NCBI GenBank assembly: GCA_024695935.1
Contig: JAILHH010000003.1
Location: 62,001 to 126,000 of the forward strand
Source: Acetatifactor sp.
GTDB lineage: Bacteria > Bacillota > Clostridia > Lachnospirales > Lachnospiraceae
Length of the DNA stretch: 64,000 bases
Direction: 5' to 3'
Program-made: the position numbers and the translations under genes
Notes under the pieces: generated by a model
The model's input: the letters and a program-made list of their open reading frames with translations, nothing else
Told to the model about the DNA's origin: nothing
The model's database searches: none
Part shown: in pieces, positions 17,494-61,494 of the stretch
How the letters are laid out: each line of letters begins with the position of its first letter
How positions within the stretch are numbered: the first letter of the stretch is position 1

Positions 17494-20400
17494 TTAGCCG
17501 ATCTTTTCTTCGGTAGTTTGATCTTTGTCTACTCTTTTCTGGGCAGTGGAGAGCATCAGTTTGATACGGTTTAACTGGTTTACTTCGCTGGCTCCCGGGT
17601 CAAAGTCGATGGCTACGATATTGGCTTCGGGATAAACTTTTCTCAGGGTTTTGATGACACCCTTTCCCACAACATGGTTTGGCAGACAGCCGAAGGGCTG
17701 CGTACAAACGATGTTTGGAACATCCTCTTTTATGAGCTCCACCATTTCTCCCGTCAAAAACCATCCTTCACCGGTCTGATTGCCGATGGATACGATATCT
17801 TCGGCGTATTTTACAGTAGTCTTTATGGGATTCGGAGGGTCAAAATGTTTACTCTTTTTAAAGGCTTCATTTGAGGCTTTTCTCAAAACATGCTCAATGA
17901 TCCAGATGCCGGCCTTTGAAACAAGGGCGGATTTTTTGCCTGTGCCAAGGTGCTCTGCCTTATAAATCTGATTTTCAAAGCAGTAGAGCATAAAGTCCAT
18001 GAGATCAGGGACCACTGCTTCGGCGCCTTCTTTTTCGAGTAACTCCACGAGGTGGTTATTTCCTGCAGGTGAAAACTTAACCAGGATCTCGCCAACGATT
18101 CCGACTCTGGGCTTCTTTATGTCTAAAACAGGCAGTTCATCAAATTCTTTTATTATCTGACGGCATACTCTGTAATATTTAGAGAGGCTTACATGCTTTG
18201 CGGACACCAGATTCATGCAGACTTTTTTCCACTTGTCATGGAGTGCGTTTGCCGAACCGGGGATTTTTTCATAGGGCCTGGTGCGATATACGACTCTCAT
18301 AAATATATCACCAAAGGAAGCGGCCATGGCTACACGGACCAGCATATCGGCGCTTACCTTAAAGCCCGGATTTGTCTCCATTCCGTTTAAGTTAAGGGAG
18401 ATTACGGGGATCTGTTCCATGCCGGCCTTTTTTAAGGCACGTCTTATGAAGCCCACATAGTTTGAGGCTCTGCATCCGCCACCGGTCTGAGTCATTATGA
18501 GGGCTGTCCTGTCAAGGTCGTATTTTCCGCTTTGAAGTGCCTCCATCATCTGACCCACAACAAGGAGGGAAGGGTAGCAGGCATCATTGTTTACATACTT
18601 AAGGCCCACGTCCACGGAATGCTTGTTGTCATTGTCTAAGACTTTTACCTTATATCCTGCTCCGTTAAAGCCTTTTTCCATGATCTCCATATGGATGGGA
18701 GACATCTGGGGGCAGAGTATGGTATAGTTTTTTTTCATAAGCTTGTCGAATATACGACGATTGATGGCAGTGGGCTTTACATCTGCTTTTTTGCCCTGGC
18801 GTTTTCGTACATTTATGGCGGCGAGCAGTGATCTGATTCGGATCCTTGCGGCACCCAGGTTATTGACTTCATCAATCTTTAAGCATGTATATATCTTGTT
18901 TGAACCTGAAAGTATATCATTTACCTGGTCGGTGGTAACTGCATCAAGACCGCATCCGAAGGAATTAAGCTGAATGATATCCAGATTGTCCACAGTCCTT
19001 ACGTAGCTTGCGGCAGCATAGAGCCTTGAATGGTACATCCACTGATCGCTTACGATAAGAGGTCTCTCAGGGTGACCGAGATGTGATATGGAATCCTCGG
19101 TTAATACTGCCATATCATATCCTGTGATAAGCTCAGGTATACCGTGGTTGATCTCAGGGTCTATATGATAAGGACGGCCGGCAAGGACAATACCGTGTTT
19201 TCCGGTTTCCTTCAGATATCGAAGGACTTCCTCACCCTTTTCGCTAATGTCTTTTCTGACCTTTGCAGCTTCATCCCAAGCCAGGATCACGGCATTTTTT
19301 ATCTCTTTTTCGGGAATCTTATCAAATTCATCCTTTAATGCCTCAGTGATGGTATCAACACTCTTAAATGACATAAAGGGATTTCTGAACCTTACATTGT
19401 TGGCAGTAAGGCTTTCCACGTTATTTTTAATATTTTCGGAGTATGAGGTTACGATGGGGCAGTTGTAGTGATTGCCTGCTCCTTCGACCTCTTTTCTCTC
19501 ATAGAAAACTGCGGGATAAAAAATCTCTTTTACACCGTTTTGGATAAGCCATTCCACGTGTCCGTGAGCCAGCTTTGCGGGGTAACATTCCGATTCACTG
19601 GGAATGGATTCGATACCCATTTCATAGATCTTTCTGGTGGAAGTGGGGGAGAGGACAACTCTGTAACCCAAGGTAGTAAAAAATGTATGCCAGAAAGGAT
19701 AATTTTCGTACATATTGAGGACTCTGGGAAGACCGATGGTGCCTCTTTTTGCCTCAGATTCCGAAAGAGGTTCATAGTCAAAGATCCTCTTTAATTTATA
19801 TTCATAGAGATTTGGAACATTGTTTGCGTTCTTTACTCCGCCGATACCTCTCTCACAGCGGTTTCCGGAAATGTATCTTCTTCCGTCGGAGAATTTATTG
19901 ATGGTTAGACGGCAGTTGTTGGTACATTTACCGCATTTTGCCATGGAAGTCTCAAATTTCAAGGCACAGATGTCTTCAAAGGAGAGCATGGTGGTATTGT
20001 ACCCTTCCTCATATCTGTCTCTTGCGATAAGAGCGGCACCGAAGGCGCCCATGATACCGGCAATGTCGGGCCTTATGGCATTGCAGCCTGCTATCTTTTC
20101 AAAGCTTCTTAAAACTGCATCATTATAAAAGGTTCCGCCCTGGACCACGATGTTACGGCCAAGTTCTGAGGCATCTGAAACTTTGATCACTTTAAACAGA
20201 GCATTTTTTATAACGGAGTAGGCAAGTCCTGCGGATATGTCAGCCACGGAAGCACCTTCCTTTTGCGCCTGTTTAACCTTTGAATTCATGAATACGGTAC
20301 ATCTGGTACCAAGGTCAATGGGATGCTTTGCAAAGAGGGCTTCTCTTGCAAATTCCTGAACAGAAAGTGCCAGGGAAACGGCAAAGGTCTCTATAAAGGA

Positions 20401-21765
20401 TCCGCATCCTGAGGAACATGCCTCATTTAACTGTACGGAATCCACCGTGCCGTTTTTGATCTTTATGCATTTCATATCCTGACCGCCGATATCCAGAATA
20501 CAGTCAACCTTTGGATCGAAAAATGCAGCGGCGGTATAGTGGGCGATGGTCTCAACCTCGCCGTCGTCAAGCTTTAATGCCGCTTTTAACAATGCTTCAC
20601 CATATCCCGTTGAACAGGAGCGAAGGATCTTTACGCCTTCGGGAAGCATGGAATAGATCTCTTTTATGGAACGGATAGCCGTCAAAAGAGGTGAACCGTT
20701 ATTATTTGAATAGAATGAGTAGAGCAGTGTTCCGTCCTCACCCACAAGGGCGATCTTTGTGGTGGTGGAACCTGCGTCAATTCCCAAAAAGGCATTTCCT
20801 TTGTATGTGGACAGGTCCCCTTTTTTTACCTTTGTGAGGGCATGTCTGTCTGAAAAGGTACGATATTCCTCCTCATTTTTAAAGAGGGGATCGAGTCTTT
20901 CCACCTCAAAATCCATTTTGATATCGCCGGAAAGTTTTCCGGTCATATCACTGAGTGAATAATATATATCCTCTTTTGCATTTAGAGCTGAGCCAATGGC
21001 TGCAAAAAGATGAGAATTTTCCAGGTCTATGGTATGCTCTGCATCCAGCTTTAAGGTGCGGATGAAGGCATTTTTTAGTTCGGATAAATAGTGAAGGGGT
21101 CCTCCCAAAAAGGCCACATGTCCGCGGATAGGTTTACCGCAGGCAAGGCCTGAGATCGTCTGATTTACTACAGCCTGAAAGATGGAAGCGGAGAGATCGG
21201 GCTTTGTGGCTCCTTCGTTTATAAGGGGTTGAATGTCCGTCTTTGCAAAAACTCCGCATCTGGCTGCGATGGTATAGAGAGACTGATAGCTTTTTGCATA
21301 TTCGTTAAGGCCTGATGCATCGGTTTTTAAAAGTGAAGCCATCTGGTCGATAAATGAACCCGTACCGCCTGCACAGATACCGTTCATTCGCTGTTCCACG
21401 TTTCCGTTTTCAAAATAGATGATCTTTGCGTCCTCGCCTCCAAGCTCGATGGCCACATCGGTCCGGGGAGCGAAAGTTTCAAGTGAGGTTGCTACAGCTA
21501 TGACTTCCTGAGTAAAGGGGATGTTTAAATGATTTGCAAGTGTGAGACCGCCGGAACCTGTGATCATGGGAAAAACGGTAATATCCCCAAGTTTTTCATA
21601 TGCCTCGTTTACAAGCTCAAACAGTGTTTCTCTGATATTGGCATGATGTCTCTTATAATCGGAGAAAAGAATGTTTTTATCCCCGTCAAGTACTGCGATC
21701 TTTACGGTCGTGGATCCGATATCGATTCCCAGGGATGCCTGTCCTTCTAACAATTTCATAATCAT
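17494..21765 (-). CDS. Giant 2-hydroxyacyl-CoA dehydratase activase-related protein
   Basis: A 1423-aa cytoplasmic protein of the BadF/BadG/BcrA/BcrD family. Two ASKHA ATPase modules are in tandem. The first (about 10-260) has [15 protein letters not shown] and [15 protein letters not shown]. The second (about 325-590) has [25 protein letters not shown] and [16 protein letters not shown] Cys-rich [10 protein letters not shown] segment near 610-640 precedes a DUF2229-like and HgdB-like C-terminal half. Activases use ATP to push an electron from a 4Fe-4S cluster into a dehydratase or double-cubane reductase. Here activator and probable acceptor are fused in one chain, a known but uncharacterised clostridial architecture. 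The substrate is unknown. ATG 21759 is an alternative start. It is transcribed alone. Confidence 0.85.
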
Positions 21766-48658: not shown

Positions 48659-49453
48659 ATGGCAGGTACTTATTTTATGGCATACGACTATGAGTACTTT
48701 AAGAAAGAAATCCTTGCGCTTACTTCTATTGATCTGAATGCTTACAAAGAAAAGCAGATGAAGAGAAGGATCGATACTTTGATATCGAAGAACAAGATCG
48801 ATGGATATAACAATTATGTGTCGGCTTTAAAGACGGACAGAGCTTTGTTTGATGAGTTCATCAACTATATCACCATCAATGTCTCCGAGTTTTACCGAAA
48901 TCCGGAGCAGTGGCAGTTTATGGACTCCACCATCATTCCTGAGGTCATCTCCAAGTTCGGAAAGAATGTAAAGATCTGGAGTGCGGCCTGCTCTACGGGT
49001 GATGAGCCCTATTCCCTTGTCATGGCTTTCTCAAAGCATTTGCCCTTGGCAAATATCAAGATAGTTGCTACAGATATTGACAAGACGGTTATCGGTAAAG
49101 CTAAGGTTGGCCTTTACAATGACAAGAGTATTGAGAATGTTCCTGCTGAATTAAAAAAGAATTACTTTACTCAGGTCGGACCTTCTTTCAAGATTTCCGA
49201 TGAGATAAAGTCAAGAGTTGAGTTCAAAGAGCACAACCTCTTAAAGGATAAATACATGACGGATTGCCCCATCATTGTATGCAGAAATGTTTTGATATAC
49301 TTTACCGAGGAAGCAAAGGATGAGATCTTCAGAAAGTTCTATGATGCTTTGCCGAGCGGAGGAATCCTTTTCATCGGAAGTACCGAACAGATCATGAATT
49401 ATAAGGAGATAGGCTTCGACAGAAAGAGTTCATTCTTTTATGTTAAACCATAG
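48659..49453 (+). CDS. cheR: Chemotaxis protein methyltransferase CheR
   Basis: Methylates glutamates of chemoreceptors with SAM. 264 aa with an N-terminal helical domain and the catalytic domain: INVSEFYRNPEQWQFM, the SAM-binding WSAACSTGDEPYSLVM and CRNVLIYFTEEAKDEIF. No other chemotaxis genes are nearby, so the gene is isolated from its system. ATG 48677 is an alternative start; neither site has a strong ribosome site. Its stop codon falls inside the first unit of a 22-bp tandem repeat. Confidence 0.93.
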   Translation: MAGTYFMAYDYEYFKKEILALTSIDLNAYKEKQMKRRIDTLISKNKIDGYNNYVSALKTDRALFDEFINYITINVSEFYRNPEQWQFMDSTIIPEVISKFGKNVKIWSAACSTGDEPYSLVMAFSKHLPLANIKIVATDIDKTVIGKAKVGLYNDKSIENVPAELKKNYFTQVGPSFKISDEIKSRVEFKEHNLLKDKYMTDCPIIVCRNVLIYFTEEAKDEIFRKFYDALPSGGILFIGSTEQIMNYKEIGFDRKSSFFYVKP

Positions 49454-49513
49454 GTTTAACATTGTTGAGCCGTAGGCTTTACATTGTTGAACCGTAGGCT
49501 TGACGTTGTTGAA
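49448..49513 (+). repeat. Three tandem 22-bp repeats covering the cheR stop codon
   Basis: Units at 49448, 49470 and 49492, consensus CCGTAGGCTT-ACATTGTTGAA with few changes. The first includes the cheR stop codon TAG (49451-49453), so the duplication began within the coding end. Confidence 0.75.
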
Positions 49514-49542
49514 CCCCCAAAACTCCGATCATAAGAAATTTT

Positions 49543-49573
49543 AAGGCCTGCAACCGCAGGCCTTTATTTTTTC
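49543..49573 (+). terminator. Intrinsic terminator downstream of cheR
   Basis: AAGGCCTGC (49543-49551), AACC loop and GCAGGCCTT (49556-49564), a perfect 9-bp stem followed by a T-rich run. Confidence 0.9.
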
Positions 49574-49616: not shown

Positions 49617-49645
49617 TTGCTTTTTTTCTTCTTTAATGGTATAAA
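49617..49645 (+). promoter_or_regulatory. Promoter of the acyltransferase gene, placing the start at the ATG
   Basis: TTGCTT (49617-49622), a 17-bp spacer and TATAAA (49640-49645). A transcript starting 7-8 bases after the -10 would begin at or next to ATG 49653, and no ribosome binding site lies between. A leaderless mRNA is implied. Confidence 0.5.
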
Positions 49646-49652
49646 TACTCTT

Positions 49653-50420
49653 ATGGACAGAAAAGTTATATATTATCAAAATGAACTTACGGATGAGTTT
49701 TCAAAAGCAGTGATCACACCCAGGGCAATTGACAAGAATTACAAATATTCAGGTTCCGCCCTCTGGTGGGTGGGACATTTCTTTTTGTACAGAGGATTTG
49801 CCAGACCCTTTGCATATCTTTTTACCAAACTTGTGTGGGGACACAGGATCGTGGGAAGAGAAAAGTTAAAGGGCATAAATAAGTTTTATCTTTATGGGAA
49901 TCATACCAATGCCGCAGCGGATCCTTTTATTCCTTCTGTTTTATGTTACCCGACACAGGTGGATGTCATCGTTCATCCTGCAAATGTGTCCATGCCTGTG
50001 GGCGGCAGGATCACTCCGTTTCTTGGGGCATTACCACTGCCTGATGATCTTGATGCCATGAGGAATTTTCAAAAGGAGATCAAATACAGACTTTCAAAAG
50101 GTCATGCCATTACCATATATCCGGAGGCACATATCTGGCCCTATTATACAAAGATACGTCCTTTTGTTCCCGATTCCTTCGGATATGCCATAAATGATGA
50201 TCTTCCATGTTTTTGCTTTACCAATACTTATCAAAAGAGAAGATTCTTTAAAAAGCCCCGTATGGTTACCTATATTGACGGTCCTTTTTATCCGGATCTT
50301 TCCCTTACAAAGAGGGAAGCAAAGCAAAGGCTCAGGGATCAGGTTTACGAAGCAATGACTGACAGAGCCAAAAACAATAATGTGGAATTAATTGAGTACA
50401 GAAGAGGAGAAGAGTCTTGA
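49653..50420 (+). CDS. PlsC-like lysophospholipid acyltransferase
   Basis: 255 aa with a 1-acylglycerol-phosphate acyltransferase fold: YGNHTNAAADPF as the catalytic motif, GGRITPFLGALPLPD and YPEAHIWPYYTKIRPF. The catalytic His and Asp are spaced H-x5-D (H84, D90) instead of the usual H-x4-D, which may affect activity. ATG 49653 lacks a ribosome site but follows a promoter so closely that the mRNA may be leaderless. It overlaps the GT8 gene by 4 bases. The similar pair fused in the second gene downstream suggests both enzymes act on one glycolipid (inference). Confidence 0.82.
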   Translation: MDRKVIYYQNELTDEFSKAVITPRAIDKNYKYSGSALWWVGHFFLYRGFARPFAYLFTKLVWGHRIVGREKLKGINKFYLYGNHTNAAADPFIPSVLCYPTQVDVIVHPANVSMPVGGRITPFLGALPLPDDLDAMRNFQKEIKYRLSKGHAITIYPEAHIWPYYTKIRPFVPDSFGYAINDDLPCFCFTNTYQKRRFFKKPRMVTYIDGPFYPDLSLTKREAKQRLRDQVYEAMTDRAKNNNVELIEYRRGEES

Positions 50421-51274
50421 ATCTGTTATTTTCAGGAAACATAAAGGTCTTTGACGGTGTTTTGACCTGCCTTTTGTCGGTTTTAAACAGGACAAAGTCA
50501 AAGGAAGCTTTTAATATATATCTGCTTACCATGGATGTGAGTTATCTGAAACCGGAATACCTGGCAATCGATGATAAAAGCGTTGAATTTTTGGACAGGG
50601 TGGTAAAAGGATATAATCCCTTAAACAAAGTGACAAAGATTGATGTGTCTGATTTTTATCAGAGGGAATTTGCCAACTGCCCCAATGAGCAGTGCTATTG
50701 TTCGCCCTATACGCTTCTTAGGCTTTTTATCGATCTGATCCCGGAGATACCGGAAAAGATTTTATATCTGGATTGTGATATAATGTTTAATCGTGAGATC
50801 GAGCTGTTATACGAAACGGATGTTTCGGAATATGAATATGCCGCAGCCAGGGATCATTACGGCAAATATCTGTTAAATCCCAATTATATCAATGCCGGCG
50901 TGCTGTTGTTCAATATGAAAAAGTGCAGGGAGACAGGATTGTTTGAAAAGGCAAGAGAGCTTATCAAGACCAAAAAGATGCTCTTTGCTGATCAGGATGC
51001 CATTTATCATTCCACAGTCAAAAAATTAATGCTCCCCCAGAGATTTAACGATCAGAAGTTTTTACATAAACACACAGTGGTAAGGCATTTTTCAAAAAGG
51101 CTTTTTTATCTGCCATATCCTCATACGGATAATATAAAGCAATGGCATGTTGAAAAAGTGCGAAAGGTTTTTCATTACAGACAATTCGATGATATCTATG
51201 AGATATACTCGGATCTTAGGAGGAAGAGAGAAAATGAAATTTTCCATGAATCTGCTGAGAACGGGCAGGAATGA
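50417..51274 (+). CDS. Family 8 glycosyltransferase
   Basis: 285 aa. A GT8 fold with the metal-binding D-x-D at D119-C120-D121 (ILYLDCDIMFN), NYINAGVLLFNMKKCR and the ADQDAIYH motif. It probably transfers glucose or galactose from a UDP-sugar to an unknown acceptor. It starts with TTG 50417 after AGGAG, overlapping the acyltransferase stop. It ends inside the start of the GT8-acyltransferase fusion. No membrane helix is predicted. Confidence 0.9.
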   Translation: MNLLFSGNIKVFDGVLTCLLSVLNRTKSKEAFNIYLLTMDVSYLKPEYLAIDDKSVEFLDRVVKGYNPLNKVTKIDVSDFYQREFANCPNEQCYCSPYTLLRLFIDLIPEIPEKILYLDCDIMFNREIELLYETDVSEYEYAAARDHYGKYLLNPNYINAGVLLFNMKKCRETGLFEKARELIKTKKMLFADQDAIYHSTVKKLMLPQRFNDQKFLHKHTVVRHFSKRLFYLPYPHTDNIKQWHVEKVRKVFHYRQFDDIYEIYSDLRRKRENEIFHESAENGQE

Positions 51275-53039
51275 GATTCCCATATTTTTTGCCTGTGACA
51301 ATGGTTTCGTAAAATATATGATGGTGACCATGCGTTCCATCATTGCCCATGCAAACAAGAAAAAGACATATATATTTCACGTGCTGCACATGGACATTAC
51401 GGCGGAAAACCAGCTTCTCATAAAGACTATGGAGACCGAAAACTGTAAAGTGGTCTTTGATGATGTCTCCGAGCGCATGTCCAAATTTTCAAAAAAACTT
51501 TCCGTCAGGGATTATTATACGGCAACAACATATTACAGGCTCCTCATTGCCAATATGTTTCCCGAATATGACAAGGTTGTTTACATCGATTCTGATACGG
51601 TTGTCTTAAAAGATATTGCAGAGCTTTACGAATACGAGCTTGACAACAATTACATCGGTGCTGTGAGAGACCAGATCGTCATGGAACAGGAAGTCTTTGG
51701 AGACTACGCCGAGAAGGTTTTGGGTATTTCCAGAGCAGCATATTTCAATGCAGGTGTCGTGCTCATCAACTGTGAACTTTTCAGAAAAAAGAATATGCTG
51801 AAGCAGTTCATTGATCTGCTTAACACTTATTCTTTTGTGGTTGCCCAGGATCAGGACTATCTGAATATGCTTTGTAAAGAGCATGTGAGATGGCTTGACG
51901 GCAGATGGAATGTGCAGATTTCTACCCCTGTGGCATGGCCTGAGGATCAGTTTTGTATAATCCATTATAATCTGGCTGTAAAGCCATGGCATTATAAGGA
52001 TTGCAGATACGGAAATCATTTCTGGGATTATGCCATCCTTTCTCCAAAGTACAAAGAGATAGTGGAGGAGATGGAAAACTATTCGCCCACCAGAAAACAG
52101 CAGGATATATTAAGCGGTGACAATCTGCTGCATCTTGCCATGGGCGAGATCCACAATGAGCATAATTATTTCAATACCTATGGTGATGCGGATTCGCCTT
52201 CTATATACAGGACAAATGTTCTTAACAAGATCCGTGTCTTGGAGAAGGAAGGAAGGTTTGATGTGGACTGTGAGGATGATCCGCCGGGAAGGGAATTAAA
52301 ACCCTGGGAGATCGATTATCTGAAGCACTCTATAAAGCAGAGGACCATGGCAAGGTATGCCTTCAGGATCGCCAGATGGTTTGTTGGCGCCATGATCGCT
52401 AAGCACCAGCTTATCATCAAGGATTATGTGGGACTTGAAAATTACAAGAATCTGAGAAGCGGTGCCATCATAACCTGTAATCATTTTCACCCCATGGACA
52501 GTTTTGCCATGCATATAACATATGAAAAGGCAAAGCAGCGCAGAAAGAGAAAACTTTTCAGAGTCATAAAGGAAGGAAATTACACAACATTTCCCGGATT
52601 TTTCGGATTCCTTATGCGAAACTGCAATACACTTCCCTTAAGTTCCAACAAGGAGACCATGAGAAAGTTTATTTTCGCAACGGATCAGATCCTGCAGAAA
52701 GGCCATTTTATCCTGGTTTATCCTGAGCAGAGCCTCTGGTGGAATTATCGAAAGCCAAAGCCTTTAAAGAAGGGAGCATTTACCATCGCTGCCAGAAACC
52801 ATGTGCCTGTGCTTCCATGTTTTATAACAATGGAGGACAGTGCCTACACTGATTCTGAGGGATTCCCCGTTCAGGAATATACCGTTCATATAGCGCCGCC
52901 CATTTATCCCGATCCCAACAAAAAACTGGGTGAAAACGTGGAGATGATGATGCACGAGAATGAATTGGCATGGAAAAATATATATGAAAAAACCTATGGC
53001 ATTCCACTGGTTTATACATGTGATGAAAAAGATGCGTAA
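51234..53039 (+). CDS. Fused GT8 glycosyltransferase and PlsC-type acyltransferase
   Basis: 601 aa with two enzymes in one chain. The N-terminal GT8 domain (about 10-270) has D119-S120-D121 in VVYIDSDTVVL, AAYFNAGVVLINC and VAQDQDYLN. A linker of about 90 residues, rich in charged residues, follows. The C-terminal acyltransferase (about 370-590) has the canonical H-x4-D in CNHFHPMD (H417, D422) and YPEQSLWWNYRKPKPLKKG. AGGAGG at 51219-51224 sets ATG 51234; the longer upstream frame overlaps the GT8 gene and is rejected. The fusion implies sequential glycosylation and acylation. Product unknown. Confidence 0.85.
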   Translation: MKFSMNLLRTGRNEIPIFFACDNGFVKYMMVTMRSIIAHANKKKTYIFHVLHMDITAENQLLIKTMETENCKVVFDDVSERMSKFSKKLSVRDYYTATTYYRLLIANMFPEYDKVVYIDSDTVVLKDIAELYEYELDNNYIGAVRDQIVMEQEVFGDYAEKVLGISRAAYFNAGVVLINCELFRKKNMLKQFIDLLNTYSFVVAQDQDYLNMLCKEHVRWLDGRWNVQISTPVAWPEDQFCIIHYNLAVKPWHYKDCRYGNHFWDYAILSPKYKEIVEEMENYSPTRKQQDILSGDNLLHLAMGEIHNEHNYFNTYGDADSPSIYRTNVLNKIRVLEKEGRFDVDCEDDPPGRELKPWEIDYLKHSIKQRTMARYAFRIARWFVGAMIAKHQLIIKDYVGLENYKNLRSGAIITCNHFHPMDSFAMHITYEKAKQRRKRKLFRVIKEGNYTTFPGFFGFLMRNCNTLPLSSNKETMRKFIFATDQILQKGHFILVYPEQSLWWNYRKPKPLKKGAFTIAARNHVPVLPCFITMEDSAYTDSEGFPVQEYTVHIAPPIYPDPNKKLGENVEMMMHENELAWKNIYEKTYGIPLVYTCDEKDA

Positions 53040-53058: not shown

Positions 53059-53092
53059 AAGAGTCGAACAAAAAAAGTTCGACTCTTTTTTG
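53059..53092. terminator. Bidirectional terminator between fusion gene and YprB-like gene
   Basis: AAGAGTCGAAC (53059-53069), an A-rich loop and GTTCGACTCTT (53077-53087), a perfect 11-bp stem with a T run after it. It separates two converging genes. Confidence 0.88.
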
Positions 53093-60675: not shown

Positions 60676-61494
60676 TTAAAATTTTATGTTTCTGATCTTG
60701 TCGGATACATCGAGAGAGGTGTAAATTTCGGCATATTCTCTGGGGGATATGTCCACATAGTTTTCCGTGTAATTTTTGTTTAATCCCTTTGACATGAGGA
60801 TGTCTATGGCTTTGTTATAGGCGATGGCGGCTTCATTTTCGGTCTTATACTTACCGACGATAATATTGCCGTTTACATGTATTCTTGTGACATAGGAATA
60901 GAATCCGTTTTTGTATGCCACCTTTACTCCCTGATATTTGTTCCATATCTCCAGATTCTCACGGCGAAAGTCCGTGGGATCGTTGTTTATGAATTTATAG
61001 TCTTCTCCGGCTACCGCATAATTTTTAATTCCGTAACGGCTGAAGATATTTACCTGCATTCCGTAGTCGGCCACAAAATAGTGTCCACCGCGCTTCATTA
61101 TCTTGTGGGATGAATAATAGAACAGATCCTCGTGATCGAATTTCAGGATCAGCGCAGGGGAGAAGTGGTACTCGAAATATCTTTGCTTAATATAAATGGG
61201 ATGACCGAAGTAGATGTTATTGTCCCTGAAATTTATGATGGAAACCCATTTCTCATATGAAAGAGGAGAACTCTGCCTGTAATCGTCCAGAGTCACAGAG
61301 TCTTTTTCGGAGAGCCGTAAAGCTTCCCTGTAGGCTGCATTAGCCTTTTTTTCAGTGGAGTAGCTCCCCAGGGAAATGTGTTTTCTCCTGTATGTAAAGG
61401 AAGAGCGAAAATACAATGTTCCGTCCTTTTTTCTGGCGGGATAAACACCTTCAAGATGTGTAATTTTTTCTTCAGAAGATTGTTTTGCACTCAT
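60676..61494 (-). CDS. Double AP2-domain protein with HNH-derived centre
   Basis: 272 aa. Two AP2-like DNA-binding domains: residues 15-60 (GVYPARKKDG, then SLGSYSTEKKANAAYREA) and 188-232 (GVKVAYKNG, then VGKYKTENEAAIAYNKA). The region between them, about 140-187, ends with YKFINNDPTDFRRENLEIWN, resembling the tail of HNH nucleases of the AP2-HNH homing-endonuclease type. The catalytic His residues are not seen. It may be a domesticated endonuclease turned DNA-binding protein (inference). The start ATG 61494 directly follows a TATAAT, suggesting a leaderless mRNA. Its promoter abuts that of thrC. Confidence 0.75.
   Translation of the reverse strand: MSAKQSSEEKITHLEGVYPARKKDGTLYFRSSFTYRRKHISLGSYSTEKKANAAYREALRLSEKDSVTLDDYRQSSPLSYEKWVSIINFRDNNIYFGHPIYIKQRYFEYHFSPALILKFDHEDLFYYSSHKIMKRGGHYFVADYGMQVNIFSRYGIKNYAVAGEDYKFINNDPTDFRRENLEIWNKYQGVKVAYKNGFYSYVTRIHVNGNIIVGKYKTENEAAIAYNKAIDILMSKGLNKNYTENYVDISPREYAEIYTSLDVSDKIRNIKF

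Follow-up and report, generated by a model that had tools for sequence, protein, structure and literature searches.

Glycolipids of gut and rumen Clostridia can serve as surface antigens and as anchors, and to our knowledge few of the enzymes that synthesize them are known. A described system in which glycosylation and acylation of a membrane lipid are interwoven is the mycobacterial PIM pathway of PimA, PatA and PimB', in which glycosyltransferases of family GT4, operating at the cytoplasmic face, take turns with an acyltransferase of LPLAT fold whose target is a glycolipid sugar; the enzymes are encoded by separate genes and act on phosphatidylinositol. Family 8 glycosyltransferases (GT8) work more often on LPS, glycoproteins or polysaccharides, and we know of no GT8 of the LgtC type that is fused to an acyltransferase. 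As to the acyltransferases themselves, an HX5D variant of the LPAAT motif is known in SalA, the O-acyltransferase of a roseobacter sulfur aminolipid, where it was reported to be distinctive although a model of the enzyme could still be superposed on the active site of PlsC (PMC8319176), and fungal GPATs also carry HX5D (PMC4207751).

The locus described here occupies positions 49653-53039 of the window (the whole stretch of 64,000 nucleotides analysed) and consists of three overlapping ORFs, whose first-pass annotation as a PlsC-like acyltransferase, a GT8 and a GT8-PlsC fusion was confirmed in the sequence. The four domains, hereafter PlsC-A (PA), GT8-A (GA), GT8-B (GB) and PlsC-B (PB), all exist, have retained their catalytic motifs and occur together, with no further gene conserved beside them. 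With moderate confidence, we propose that these three genes form a self-contained cassette, spread by horizontal transfer, whose product is an acylated α-diglycosyl membrane lipid. The initial impression that the set has no described product has held, in that neither a product nor a published description of the gene set was found within the open-licence literature.

Organization of the locus

The three ORFs, all on the plus strand, are the sole occupants of the stretch between two strong intrinsic terminators. The first of these (49543..49564, plus strand; 9-bp stem and T tract, −16.5 kcal/mol, z −5.1) terminates transcription from cheR and sets the cassette apart, and the second (53059..53087, plus strand; 11-bp stem and T tract, −15.6 kcal/mol, z −4.9) closes the unit. 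PlsC-A (49653..50420; 255 aa, ATG start) overlaps GT8-A (50417..51274; 285 aa, TTG start) by 4 nt, and the latter overlaps the GT8-B/PlsC-B fusion (51234..53039; 601 aa, ATG start) by 41 nt; since the unit is bracketed by the two terminators, the three genes are probably transcribed as a single mRNA. The difference in domain order between the single genes and the fusion, to which attention had been drawn at the outset, is true and simply follows from the arrangement PA-GA-GB-PB with the last two members fused. In this 2.64-Mb genome the GT8s of the cassette are the only GT8 genes and, besides the cassette, one further PF01553 gene was found, the housekeeping PlsC.

A TATAAA-like sequence is located ~6 nt 5' of the PlsC-A ATG with no visible ribosome-binding site (window 49617-49653), and a leaderless mRNA for PlsC-A is possible. 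In the gap between cheR and the upstream terminator a 25-30 nt repeat (gttgaaccgtaggctt..., window 49452-49515) occurs three times in imperfect form, and farther downstream a lone 272-aa ORF (window 60676-61494, minus strand), homing-endonuclease/AP2-like by eye, lies among housekeeping genes.

The single acyltransferase

The homologues of PlsC-A begin at the same Met. Motif I of the protein is N-H-T-X4-D, its HX5D running from His84 to Asp90, and motif III is YPEAHIWP, HX5D instead of HX4D being present in 91 of the 91 aligned PlsC-A proteins. With 17.4 bits PlsC-A remains under the curated cut-off (23) of Pfam Acyltransferase (PF01553), and no match was obtained in a search with TIGR00530; with these cut-offs missed, and with HX5D in the place of HX4D, its inclusion in PlsC/TIGR00530 was rejected. 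Because the Pfam score is below the cut-off, the assignment is based on the motifs, on an AlphaFold (AF2) model (pLDDT 86, pTM 0.85) and on the Foldseek matches of this model with PlsC (5kym), PatA (5f31) and LpxM (5kn7), obtained with E values from 4e-5 to 9e-4, probability 1.00 and modest TM-scores (0.43-0.53). Judging from the predicted structure, PlsC-A belongs to the LPLAT fold superfamily (PlsC/PatA/GPAT fold). Its HX5D motif is rare, but already known elsewhere, and since SalA and the fungal GPATs have it no loss of activity is implied; it may instead mark a different acceptor. Among the fold matches, LpxM and PatA are acylators of saccharide lipids, the latter acylating a mannose of PIM (PMC4792965).

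The acyltransferases could also act on glycerol instead of sugar, a GT8-made glycosyl-glycerol(-phosphate) or lyso-glycolipid being acylated at sn-1 and sn-2. Two acyltransferases are the exact number for these two positions, the LPLAT family usually acylates glycerol-based acceptors and the top fold matches of PlsC-A include PlsC (5kym); yet the genome already has a housekeeping PlsC, and both HX5D and YPEAHIWP distinguish PlsC-A from LPA acyltransferases. We regard glycerol acylation as rather unlikely, and the same holds for its corollary, namely that the cassette makes ordinary diacyl glycolipids de novo by an alternative route.

The glycosyltransferases and the fused acyltransferase

GT8-A is a divergent family 8 glycosyltransferase (Glyco_transf_8, PF01501, 62.9 bits with a cut-off of 24.3; profile match with LgtC 3.7e-11) whose DxD, at YLDCD, has both Asp kept in 91/91 cases. 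The GT8-B domain (51261..52193, plus strand) reaches 163.2 bits with the same Pfam model (cut-off 24.3) and has its DxD at YIDSDT, both Asp being kept in 84/85, and a C-terminal HX5KPWHY motif as in LgtC, with which its catalytic core aligns (phmmer 2.5e-22; Foldseek 1g9r, TMt 0.77). GT8 enzymes are retaining, so that α-linked sugars would be expected from both.

The PlsC-B domain, which includes an N-terminal region of its own (52209..53036, plus strand), displays HX4D (NHFHPMD; the Asp is kept in 80/82) and YPEQSLWWNYRKPKP. It exceeds the cut-off of Pfam Acyltransferase (PF01553; 50.7 bits, cut-off 23) and remains under that of TIGR00530 (36.4 bits, cut-off 102.95). In one relative (L059:9297-10214) a single in-frame TGA interrupts PlsC-B, the copies of other relatives being intact. 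The AF2 model of the 601-aa fusion (pLDDT 86, pTM 0.55) consists of two confident domains of uncertain relative placement. A 630-aa version of this protein starting at 51147 was rejected as an over-extension; homology begins only after 51234 and the longer start is therefore unneeded.

Conservation and spread

The three-gene set was sought in other genomes. At least 586 relatives of PlsC-A are present in named genomes, and the nearest 80 loci, nearly all from gut or rumen metagenome bins, were kept for analysis. All four domains are found in 71 of these 80 loci, usually in the order PA-GA-GB-PB, and in 78 of the 80 PA and GA are adjacent on the same strand with a median gap of 11 nt; in Treponema the order is GB-PB-PA-GA and the genes are unfused, but the set is kept. 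The hosts are Lachnospiraceae, Oscillospiraceae, other Clostridia, one member of the Erysipelotrichaceae and 11 Spirochaetota; one carrier, Treponema sp. C6A8, is represented by a genome record in RefSeq and not by a bin. Within the family PlsC-A homologues at E up to 1e-5 occur in 15 and cassette components in 13 of 200 genomes, and a strong PlsC-A orthologue is present in 21 of the 391 genomes of a wider class sample. Partial sets also exist (PA+GA in a few Treponema, GB+PB in genome G189). The cassette is thus real, conserved and widely distributed and, since it sits in two phyla on unrelated backgrounds, its distribution suggests horizontal spread, with the proviso that single bins may be contaminated.

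The presence of only half the set in some genomes might indicate that the genes are functionally unrelated neighbours that merely share an operon. However, dozens of genomes contain this same set, so that co-location goes beyond chance; it is conserved over two phyla and kept despite the rearranged order, and both a GB-PB fusion and a triple fusion (see below) exist. An accidental neighbourhood is therefore highly improbable and already largely excluded.

Clustering of the flanking genes across 93 loci yielded no conserved accessory gene; the recurrent neighbours reflect local synteny only, chiefly among Treponema, and a conserved flippase, nucleotide-sugar enzyme or regulator as a partner was rejected, none being conserved in these flanks. 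Because no further neighbouring gene is conserved, the substrates of the cassette must be housekeeping ones.

Origin of the domains and of the fusion

Among the loci having one GB and one PB (n = 80), the two are fused in 63 and separate in 17. On a tree of GB+PB built with 47 representatives three changes suffice, and the deep branches hold the separate state; the fusion is derived, a single gain followed by reversal in L152 and again in L163 being the most parsimonious and natural reading. L163 (10647-12194) has, after an intact GT8-B, another protein that joins a degenerate GT8 to PlsC-B. Full-length PB occurs as a stand-alone gene in relatives and, since the fused protein holds a full-length PB with its own N-terminal region, the fusion simply unites two genes, GB and PB, that lay next to each other. 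In a metagenome bin (L143:7735-10368) GA, GB and PB are found in one 878-aa frame, where a lost stop is possible; this triple fusion and the GB-PB fusion argue for a single pathway.

In the GT8 tree GA is a single long-branched clade with full support, and GB lies among ordinary Lachnospiraceae GT8s; monophyly of GB is not strict, because it includes, with weak support, another GT8 represented by two identical copies. In the PlsC tree PA and PB each form one clade (support 99) and are not sisters, PA being placed, with modest support (82), near relatives that are tied to other glycosyltransferases. By these trees GA, GB, PA and PB represent four separate ancient lineages and four different enzymes. 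The first-pass annotation had seen acyltransferase and GT8 as occurring both as separate genes and as one fused gene; these genes are indeed present, but they are not two versions of the same pair. Its suggestion of a duplication followed by fusion, for which the phylogeny of the domains was run, is not supported by either tree, the fusion having arisen from a neighbouring GB and PB.

Associated enzymes and nature of the product

Since GT8s more often use other acceptors, the glycolipid reading leans on the acyltransferases, and its main footing is provided by the partners of their relatives. GT4-PlsC fusion proteins, PlsC-A-related and with HX4D, are found in other Clostridia (L169, L174, L175, L176), and PlsC-A relatives lie directly downstream of GT4 genes in L170, L177, L185 and L187, those of L185 and L187 being strong PlsC-A orthologues without GT8-A. 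Furthermore, in L168 (2989-4932) a 648-aa GT8 fused to a diglucosyl-DAG-synthase-like GT28 (156 bits) is followed by a PlsC-A-like acyltransferase. Both the GT4 associations and the GT8-GT28 fusion point to glycolipids. The partner GT4s resemble DAG glycosyltransferases weakly, which speaks against the glycerol as the site of acylation, and in the window genome no dedicated DAG glucosyltransferase was convincingly matched among the five GT4s checked by NCBIfam.

The weak similarity of some partner GT4s to LTA-anchor enzymes, and the use of LPS or glycan acceptors by the GT8 relatives LgtC, WbbM and GlyE, would suit a cassette that makes or modifies a lipid-anchored envelope polymer (e.g., an acylated anchor of a lipoteichoic-acid-like or capsule-like glycan) and not a free glycolipid. 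Against this, the 93 loci show no conserved polymerase, flippase, ligase or sugar-nucleotide gene adjacent to the cassette, and the cassette spans monoderm Clostridia and diderm Treponema, for which we know of no such common polymer. We consider an envelope polymer improbable, somewhat more so than acylation on glycerol.

Two links with other lipid pathways were considered. A UgtP-type MGDG synthase is present in 8 of 21 cassette genomes vs 234 of 391 overall (p = 0.04) and, within the family, in 1 of 13 vs 36 of 200; dependence on such a partner is not borne out, the cassette being if anything rarer alongside it, an independence that would also suit acylation on glycerol. In two genomes, and only there, a large BadF/BadF/DUF2229 protein, plasmalogen-synthase-like, adjoins the cassette: one of 1549 aa ~13 nt after PlsC-B (L063:3385-8031) and its 1563-aa homologue overlapping the PlsC-A start (L065:4439-9130). 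They bear a resemblance to the 2-hydroxyacyl-CoA-dehydratase family, which includes plasmalogen synthase PlsA/PlsR (PMC12838417), and their position in these two genomes would suit a glycolipid product, for which it counts less than the GT4 and GT28 partners. The closer PlsA-like protein occurs in 3 of 13 cassette genomes vs 15 of 200, a difference that is not significant (p = 0.06), and its abutting the cassette in two genomes only led to the rejection of a universal plasmalogen link. Of the 200 family genomes, 194 have a ~1420-aa PlsA-like paralogue, whose mere presence is therefore uninformative. The window's own paralogue of the large protein is located at 19840-21744 on the minus strand.

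The conserved four-domain set, the triple fusion and the GT4 and GT8-GT28 associations favor what had been surmised from the locus itself, namely a single pathway in which glycosylation is paired with acylation, the product being most likely an envelope glycolipid. Such a pathway might, as was also surmised, couple each sugar addition to an acylation of that sugar. In the glycolipid pathway that we envisage, a housekeeping lipid at the inner membrane face would receive two sugars, probably hexoses donated by UDP-sugars, from the two retaining GT8s, and one fatty acyl chain from each of the two LPLAT-fold acyltransferases; within the fusion, GT8-B may pass its product on to PlsC-B. More tentatively, the product may represent an undescribed class of multi-acylated α-diglycosyl membrane lipids. 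The four-enzyme cassette behind them, having spread between monoderm Clostridia and diderm Treponema of animal guts, would then include a bifunctional enzyme for glycosyl and acyl transfer and a subfamily of sugar acyltransferases with HX5D.

The combination of YPEAH[IV]WP and HX5D is a compact marker that matches hundreds of public genome sequences, among them the record of at least one sequenced isolate (Treponema sp. C6A8), and opens the question of which gut bacteria make acylated glycolipids to direct genetic and lipid testing. Furthermore, the recurrent fusion of GT8 or GT4 with LPLAT acyltransferases suggests a general design, the members of such pairs being now split by annotation pipelines into "glycosyltransferase" and "1-acylglycerol-3-phosphate acyltransferase".

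Comparison with known systems

GT8-B has the fold, the DxD and the HX5KPWH motif of the LgtC-type α-galactosyltransferases, from which it differs in sequence (27% identity to LgtC). PlsC (LPA acyltransferase, PF01553) shares its fold with both acyltransferases and HX4D with PlsC-B, which however has YPEQ where the FPEG motif is usual, whereas PlsC-A departs from it in HX5D, YPEAHIWP and the sub-cut-off Pfam score. SalA has the same HX5D variant as PlsC-A but a different acceptor class and lineage, and we know of no glycosyltransferase partner for it. The fusions of L169, L174-L176 and L168 likewise join a glycosyltransferase to, or place it beside, a PlsC-A-like acyltransferase, with GT4 or GT28 replacing GT8-A and with HX4D, and are equally uncharacterised. 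By analogy, and with PatA among the best fold matches of PlsC-A, the cassette would work most like the PIM-type acylation of glycolipids without being a member of that pathway: identity is 13-15%, and the cassette employs GT8s and two acyltransferases, one of which is fused to a glycosyltransferase.
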